Shown: positions 28,723-30,865 of the stretch, one piece after another | Layout of the letters: every line of letters starts with the position of its first letter | Numbering within the stretch: position 1 is the first letter of the stretch | Assembly (NCBI GenBank): GCA_902806095.1 | Contig: CADCVF010000040.1 | Coordinates: 1 to 64,000 of the forward strand | From: an uncultured Rubrobacteraceae bacterium | GTDB lineage: Bacteria > Actinomycetota > Rubrobacteria > Rubrobacterales > Rubrobacteraceae | DNA length: 64,000 nucleotides | Direction of reading: 5' to 3' | Made by a program: the position numbers and the translations under genes | The notes under the pieces: generated by a model | What the model saw: the letters and a program-made list of their open reading frames with translations, nothing else | Databases searched by the model: none | Told to the model about the DNA's origin: nothing

Positions 28723-29730
28723 ATGAAGTCTTCGAAAGTTCCCCAAAACAACGCCGGCCCAAACGATACCGGAGGCTACACAGCCCTGCGAGATGGCGCC
28801 GCCGTAGTCGCCCGTCCTGGGAGAAGGATCTTCCGTCTCGCAGGCAGGGACCCCATAGGAATGCTCAACGCCATCTTGACGAACGAGGTGCCGGCGCAAG
28901 GAGACCGCGGCGCCTACGCCATGCTCCTGGATCCGAAGGGTAGGGTCCAGGCTGACCTCCGCGTCGTCAAAGCCGAGGACGCGATACTCATCGACACAGA
29001 ACCGGAAGGCGCTGAGGCGGCGAAGGAGATCCTGGGCCGCTATGCCCCCTTCTCCCGAGTCAAACTGGAAGACCTCTCCGACTGGGAGGTGCTCGGCATC
29101 TACGGCCCACGGGCCACAGATCTACTCGGAAACCCCGACCTCGCCGAACACGAGAGTACACGGGCAGAGGTCGGCAGCGCTTCGGTTCTCATCGTGGGCG
29201 TCGCTGTGCCCACCCGTGGGTACGACCTCATCGGACCGGCGAGCTCCTTAGGCACCATCCGCGGGCTCTTGATCCGAGCCGGCGCCCCGCCAGCCGGCCA
29301 CGACGCTTACGAGACCGCCAGGATAGCTGCAGGCGTTCCCCGCTTCGGAACCGACATCACACCCGAGAACTTCCCCGGCGAGTCAGAGAACTCTCTGGAG
29401 CGGGCCGTCAGCTTCGGGAAGGGCTGCTACCCAGGCCAGGAGACAGTGGCCAGGATGCACTACCGTGGAAGCCCGAACAAGAAGCTCTACCGCTTCGAAC
29501 TCGAGCCAGGCTCGACGGAGCCGCCCGAGGCGGGCGATGAGATCCTGCAAGACGGGAAGAATCTGGCCGGCCTGATCCCCTCGGTAAACGTCGTCGGCTG
29601 GCTCACTTCGGTGGCCCCGTTCCCCGTGGATGGGAAGACCTACGCCCTTGGCTACCTTGCCCGCAAAGCCGACCTCGAAGACCCCATGAGGGCGGAGGAC
29701 GCGAAGATACTCGCGTCAACACAAGCATGA
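28723..29730 (+). CDS. ygfZ: Folate-binding YgfZ/GcvT-like iron-sulfur cluster protein
   Basis: A 335-residue GcvT-fold protein with the diagnostic YgfZ motif GKGCYPGQETVARMHYRG (around residue 243). YgfZ proteins use tetrahydrofolate to support assembly or repair of certain Fe-S enzymes. The N-terminal part (FRLAGRDPIGMLNAILTNEV, then LLDPKGRVQADLRV) also fits. It lies just upstream of the suf genes on the same strand, consistent with a shared role. The stop overlaps a chorismate-mutase-like minigene as ATGA. The promoter appears leaderless. Confidence 0.9.
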   Translation: MKSSKVPQNNAGPNDTGGYTALRDGAAVVARPGRRIFRLAGRDPIGMLNAILTNEVPAQGDRGAYAMLLDPKGRVQADLRVVKAEDAILIDTEPEGAEAAKEILGRYAPFSRVKLEDLSDWEVLGIYGPRATDLLGNPDLAEHESTRAEVGSASVLIVGVAVPTRGYDLIGPASSLGTIRGLLIRAGAPPAGHDAYETARIAAGVPRFGTDITPENFPGESENSLERAVSFGKGCYPGQETVARMHYRGSPNKKLYRFELEPGSTEPPEAGDEILQDGKNLAGLIPSVNVVGWLTSVAPFPVDGKTYALGYLARKADLEDPMRAEDAKILASTQA

Positions 29731-29819
29731 AACATCCCGAAGACTGCGAGGGCATAGAGGACGTTCGACAAGGCATAGACGCGCTGGAGCGCAAGATGCA
29801 GCGCTGGCGAGAAACATAA
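29727..29819 (+). pseudogene. Chorismate-mutase/isochorismate-lyase-like minigene (30 codons)
   Basis: The ORF begins MKHPEDCEGIEDVRQGID, which is very like the first helix of PchB/chorismate mutase type II proteins. It then jumps to a short QRWRET end resembling the family's C-terminus. A normal protein is about 100 residues, so the middle appears deleted in frame. The start overlaps the ygfZ stop as ATGA, so translation by coupling is possible. Confidence 0.6.
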
Positions 29820-30027
29820 CGCCGAACTCTCCGAGCGGCCTATTGGGAAACGTTCTCAACAACCACCGTTTACGGGCCCGGTGCGATGTTACAAGCAGCC
29901 CTCTGCAGGGTCTTCTGACAGTGGTTCCCGAGAAGCATCCTCAGGACGTGACCTGGATCACGAAATCCTTGTAAATAGTCAGGTTTCGTGGATTTCAGGA
30001 GCAGTTCTTGGTCGTGATCTCTTTACG
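29820..30027. other. Upstream region of the suf operon with an imperfect inverted repeat
   Basis: This gap contains GATCACGAAATCC and GGTTTCGTGGAT about 13 nt apart. They form an imperfect inverted repeat that could be a regulator site for the suf genes. No SufR, IscR or Rrf2 gene is near, and the site matches no operator I know with certainty. Confidence 0.35.
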
Positions 30028-30056
30028 TTGTTAGGGCCCTGGTGCTGTGTTTTAAT
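30028..30056 (+). promoter_or_regulatory. Candidate suf operon promoter
   Basis: TTGTTA (30028-30033) and TTTAAT (30051-30056) are separated by 17 nt. The expected start is near 30063, about 41 nt before the sufC ATG. Confidence 0.5.
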
Positions 30057-30103
30057 AGCCTTGCTGTAGCAAAGTTTTTACATCGCCTAACGGCGGGGGT
30101 TTG

Positions 30104-30865
30104 ATGCTCAAGATAGAAAATCTTCAGGTAGAGATCGACGGTCAGGAGATAGTGAAGGGCCTGGATCTCGAGGTTGGCAAGGGTGAGATACACGCGATCA
30201 TGGGCCCGAACGGCTCGGGCAAGAGCACGCTGGCCAACGTGCTCATGGGCCATCCTCGTTACGAGGTGACCGGAGGCTCCATAACCTTCCAGGGTGAGGA
30301 CGTGTTCGAGTTGGAGCCGGACGAGCGGGCCAAGCTCGGGATGTTTCTCGCTTTCCAGTATCCGAGTGAGGTCCCCGGCGTCTCCGTGGCCAACTTCCTC
30401 AGGACCGCGGTCAACTCCGTACGCGAGGAAGAGCTGAGTGCAATGGAGATGTACAGGCTCATCCAGGACAAGATGAAGATCATGCAGATGGACCCCAGGT
30501 TCGCCGAGAGGTACCTGAACGAAGGCTTCTCCGGTGGTGAGAAGAAGCGGAACGAGATCCTCCAGATGCTCATGCTCGAGCCGACGCTCGCGATCATGGA
30601 CGAGACCGACTCGGGACTCGACATCGACGCGTTGCAGGTAGTCGCCAAGGGCGTCAACGAGTTACGCGGGTCTGACTTCTCGGCGGTCATCATCACGCAC
30701 TACCAGAGGATTCTGAGGTACATCGAGCCTGACCACGTCCACGTCATGCTCGACGGGAGGCTCGTGACCAGCGGCGGCAAGGAGCTGGCGCTGGATCTCG
30801 AGGACAAGGGCTACGAGTGGGTGCGCCAGGAGTTTGGCGCGAGCGCAGAGCTAGGGAAGGGATAG
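30104..30865 (+). CDS. sufC: SufC, Fe-S cluster assembly ATPase
   Basis: A 253-residue ABC ATPase of the SUF scaffold. Walker A is GPNGSGKST (from about residue 35), the Q-loop is [18 protein letters not shown], the signature is [14 protein letters not shown], and the Walker B/D-loop is [14 protein letters not shown], where Asp-Ser-Gly-Leu-Asp is typical of SufC. It drives conformational change of SufB(D) during cluster assembly in the cytosol. The start is ATG 30104, preceded by GGGGG; the TTG immediately upstream is less likely. It is the first suf gene, followed by sufB after 5 nt. Confidence 0.96.

Follow-up and report, generated by a model that had tools for sequence, protein, structure and literature searches.

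PchB is an intertwined dimer of three-helix subunits in which Val55 favours lyase activity, while most AroQ mutases have Glu at that place, according to PMC12329711. Compared with PchB (PDB 2H9C/2H9D; NCBIfam NF005475), a 30-codon ORF in the window, the whole 64,000-nucleotide stretch of uncultured Rubrobacteraceae DNA analysed here, shares the N-terminal 22-24 residues and a WR-E/Q-T-like C-terminus, but differs by the absence of 67 of 98 codons. Deletion pseudogenes formed by short direct repeats are a general class; the window form resembles them in having conserved flanks around a single internal loss bounded by short similar stretches, but differs from them in that its frame and start happen to be intact. 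We found no paper joining isochorismate lyase and Rubrobacter, and the papers on chorismate mutase and Rubrobacter include, by title, none on this point. The mini-ORF is very probably a deletion remnant of a PchB-like gene, offering a clean example of gene loss through internal deletion; this is ordinary gene decay, which would gain greater importance only if the short peptide proved to be made and selected.

The mini-ORF and the intact genes of relatives

The mini-ORF reads MKHPEDCEGIEDVRQGIDALERKMQRWRET, then a TAA stop. Its ATG overlaps the TGA stop of a ygfZ-like gene (29728-29730) as ATGA, and its stop lies 284 bp before the ATG at 30104 of a sufC-like gene, whose start is TTG 30101 in the ORF list. 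An earlier note, made from the letters alone, had described a 30-codon ORF with this overlap and an in-frame stop, located just upstream of suf; the sequence agrees on each point, with the sufC-like gene next downstream. The features of the locus are as follows.

28723-29730, + strand: ygfZ-like folate-binding (GCV_T) protein gene, the upstream partner; ORF of 335 aa, Pfam GCV_T E = 9e-20
29727-29819, + strand: very probable PchB-like (AroQ-type) gene remnant, 30 codons, ATGA overlap with the ygfZ stop
29788-29796, + strand: deletion junction zone; best breakpoints against the closest intact gene (L004) after mini-gene bases 62-65 or 69
29843-29859, + strand: conserved Fur-box-like inverted repeat TTGGGAAACGTTCTCAA, just past the PchB-like stop in relatives and outside the deletion
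30104-30865, + strand: sufC-like ABC ATPase gene, suf cluster gene 1; ABC_tran E = 1e-23

Relatives were collected by a ygfZ search over 60 genomes, from which 30 loci, the window's own included, were examined; the relatives are Rubrobacter-type MAGs of the same family as the window genome. Full-length homologues at the same position, the check proposed by the earlier note, are present in 8 of the 30 loci, each starting right at the ygfZ stop, and could be aligned. The start is a GTG laid over the ygfZ stop (GTGA) in six intact genes (G015, G007, G001, G006, G013 and G004). L019 (G005) and L022 (G003) have CTG at the usual GTG place; CTG or another start is used there. The intact PchB/AroQ-type products of the relatives are 98-103 aa long, and the same regulatory DNA and sufC follow downstream, sufC standing at the matching relative place. 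In the other 20 loci, the window and G002 excepted, no PchB-like gene was seen within 1.4 kb, and a profile of the eight intact proteins run on the 30 loci returned, below E = 1, just those eight and the window form.

In G031 and G025 the PchB-like gene lies about 2-4 kb further on from ygfZ; its end is frameshifted in G025, on a contig titled with a coverage of 1.6, and this frameshift may be a sequencing error. In two lineages, L005/L039 (G031) and L065 (MGR_bin332, whose sequence is apparently identical to that of G025), the ygfZ/PchB-like overlap is interrupted by inserted genes for a Vsr mismatch endonuclease and a C-5 cytosine methylase, which separate ygfZ from the PchB-like gene. Strong profile matches of this PchB-like subfamily (138-179 bits) occur in 10 of 39 family genomes. 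Five genomes (G011, G010, G032, G035 and G034) have members of another, more distant PchB-like group (L043-L047, 68-86 bits), and in four of them the member lies within an open frame of some 490-500 codons. A PchB-like gene between ygfZ and suf is a feature of part of the Rubrobacteraceae.

Against NF005475, three intact proteins tested score 124.9-136 bits (cut-off 126), and their CM_2 matches have E = 4e-19 to 9e-21; the pchB structures match one intact relative tested with E about 1e-24. By these matches the intact genes seem to encode an AroQ-fold enzyme, a putative isochorismate lyase or chorismate mutase. At the place aligned with Val55 of PchB, just after PER, the intact relative carries Q, and the Q of the PchB motif EQIKYW is replaced by E, residues that single out neither activity.

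Descent from the PchB family and the 201-bp gap

The 30-residue product matches NF005475 over residues 1-24 with E = 1.3e-5, its 25.2 bits lying below the cut-off of 126 for a full-length family match, and the PDB pchB entries with E = 0.004-0.005; a Pfam search of the 30-mer, PF01817 included, gave no match. The closest relative's intact gene finds the mini-ORF by tblastn with E = 2e-8, and a PchB-like profile searched against the window's own genome matched the window form as a fragment (E = 2.5e-5); the N-terminal identity amounts to 75% over 24 residues. For the other end, a scoring matrix was built from the C-termini of the eight intact proteins, the members themselves scoring 15.9-22.5 bits. 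RKMQRWR of the mini-ORF scores 15.7 bits, the sole 7-mer among 109,811 in the window to reach this value (runner-up 11.9). The C-terminal-like QRWRET of the earlier note thus holds, as RKMQRWR is the best 7-mer of the window against the family C-terminus. Its "first helix of a PchB-like protein" stands as to the PchB-like N-terminus, which NF005475 and pchB both match, and goes too far as to extent, about the first half of helix 1 being kept if the limits of that helix on the PchB-like protein are as we assume. Both ends show that the likeness to PchB is not due to chance, and that the mini-ORF derives from the PchB/AroQ-type family, yet would be no functional member of it.

When the mini-ORF is aligned from the common final Trp codon to six of the eight intact genes (the other two carry N-terminal insertions), a single in-frame gap of 201 bp (67 codons) appears against each of the six, which confirms the internal deletion claimed by the earlier note. 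The mini-ORF corresponds to about codons 1-24 plus the last codons of an intact gene; after the gap it reads KMQRWRET, against EMQHWRDAT in the intact form. In L004 the gap ends are GACCGGGAGGTG and GGCCGCGAAATG, and the two ends share a short imperfect repeat, DRE(V/I) / REM (DREV / REM in L004), in or near which the junction is placed. With four of the six intact genes as reference the best breakpoint falls within mini-gene bases 58-69; with L019 and L022 it falls later, at base 78, outside the short repeat. The non-coding DNA leading to sufC is conserved in 10 of the 10 loci aligned, so the deletion is confined to the gene.

We propose that the ancestor carried, between ygfZ and suf, a gene some 98 codons long for a small AroQ-fold enzyme (an isochorismate lyase or a chorismate mutase), with its start overlapping the ygfZ stop. 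A stretch of 201 bp then went missing between two similar motifs, DRE(V/I) at about codon 22 and REM at about codon 89, probably by slippage or short-homology recombination; the frame survived, and about 24 N-terminal codons were fused to the C-terminal end. As in a deletion pseudogene, relatives have an intact homologue in this position, and the lesion takes out the active part.

Enzyme function and age of the deletion

R14, R31, K42 and E90 are invariant in the six intact proteins, and we take them to be the catalytic residues; only R14 is surely kept in the mini-ORF. Enzyme function would have been lost because the middle 67 of 98 residues, and hence most of the fold, are missing; the remnant, without most of the three-helix fold, presumably has neither lyase nor mutase activity of its own. 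A search of the window's own genome for an intact copy of the PchB-like subfamily elsewhere returned none, just two ordinary CM_2 genes, of which one is presumably part of a fusion with prephenate dehydratase and the other presumably neighbours a DAHP synthase gene; the second profile match in this genome is the PheA-type CM_2 gene. Isochorismate synthase (TIGR00543) scores over cut-off in 28 of the 39 family genomes, the window's own included, and no co-loss with it was seen among the 39, as TIGR00543 occurs with and without the PchB-like gene. Given two other chorismate mutase genes and an isochorismate synthase match, the loss should not stop aromatic amino acid synthesis.

L010 (G002) holds a remnant after the ygfZ stop, with the GTG start changed to GTA and few recognisable codons. 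G002 adjoins G007, which has an intact gene, in the ygfZ tree (support 80/75), and probably lost its PchB-like gene separately; its remnant, too short for the eight-protein profile, is recognised by its first codons and start site only. This probable independent remnant suggests that the PchB-like gene is dispensable, and in part of the Rubrobacteraceae the gene is probably being lost more than once.

A ygfZ tree built from the 30 loci groups the window with G015 plus G031 as its sisters (support 100/99), and since both sisters hold intact genes the loss took place on the window genome's own branch. Over the first 21 codons the window and L004 differ at 3 of 42 sites at positions 1+2 and at 11 of the 21 third positions; six intact genes, compared in all 15 pairings, differ on average at 5.6 and 6.9, respectively. 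Ten of the first 20 residues are invariant in the six intact proteins, and all 10 are kept, and the start codon is ATG, against GTG in relatives. Under a crude model, the probability of three or fewer changes at positions 1+2 is 0.002 if evolution was neutral over the whole end branch, and 0.097 (without background changes) or 0.026 (with two) if neutral over half of it; with one sequence and 21 codons these constraint figures are a crude bound. Few changes at positions 1+2, kept invariant residues and an open frame are unlike an old, freely drifting remnant. The kept codons, without visible relaxation, fit either a fairly young deletion or a peptide still constrained.

Such a constrained peptide would be a 30-residue protein whose translation is coupled to ygfZ and which selection maintains, for instance as a partner-binding helix, as the open frame, the ATG start and the low whole-branch neutral probability might indicate. 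However, a more recent deletion would also account for these data, the short 30-codon form occurs in just 1 of the 39 family genomes, and a fragment of this sort has no known function. The mini-ORF also lacks a ribosome-binding site: no Shine-Dalgarno-like site precedes its ATG (the best duplex there has +0.3 kcal/mol, compared with -9.3 at sufC), so that its translation would depend on coupling to ygfZ. We consider a retained small protein unlikely. It is quite unlikely that the 201-bp in-frame loss made a new coupled 30-residue peptide that selection has kept in the lineage, as a small gene put together from both ends of an AroQ-type enzyme. The most likely reading is a deletion pseudogene of fairly young age, whose translation, if any, would depend on coupling and whose peptide would be without function.

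It is highly improbable that the genome truly has an intact gene that lost 201 bp during assembly. The sequence comes as 85 contigs and is perhaps a MAG like its named relatives, but the similarity of the gap ends is short and imperfect, the usual assembly words being longer, and another loss is seen in a second relative, G002. The probability of a chance ORF unrelated to PchB, which just 30 codons and no Pfam match might suggest, is negligible, since position, start overlap, N-terminal identity and C-terminal match agree on one gene, and the intact homologues at the same place rule it out.

Non-coding DNA before sufC

An Rfam search over 29600-30200 gave one match far below the gathering score, which was taken as chance. 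The 284 bp before sufC (29820-30103) are strongly conserved in ten loci, and contain the Fur-box-like inverted repeat at 29843-29859. They also hold a GTTACAAGC...CTGACA stretch, a GTGA-N6-TCAC site, presumably CRP/FNR-like, and, near the sufC start, a TTGC-TGTA-GCAA inverted repeat. Judged from these conserved elements, 29820-30103 looks like a region of layered control of suf.
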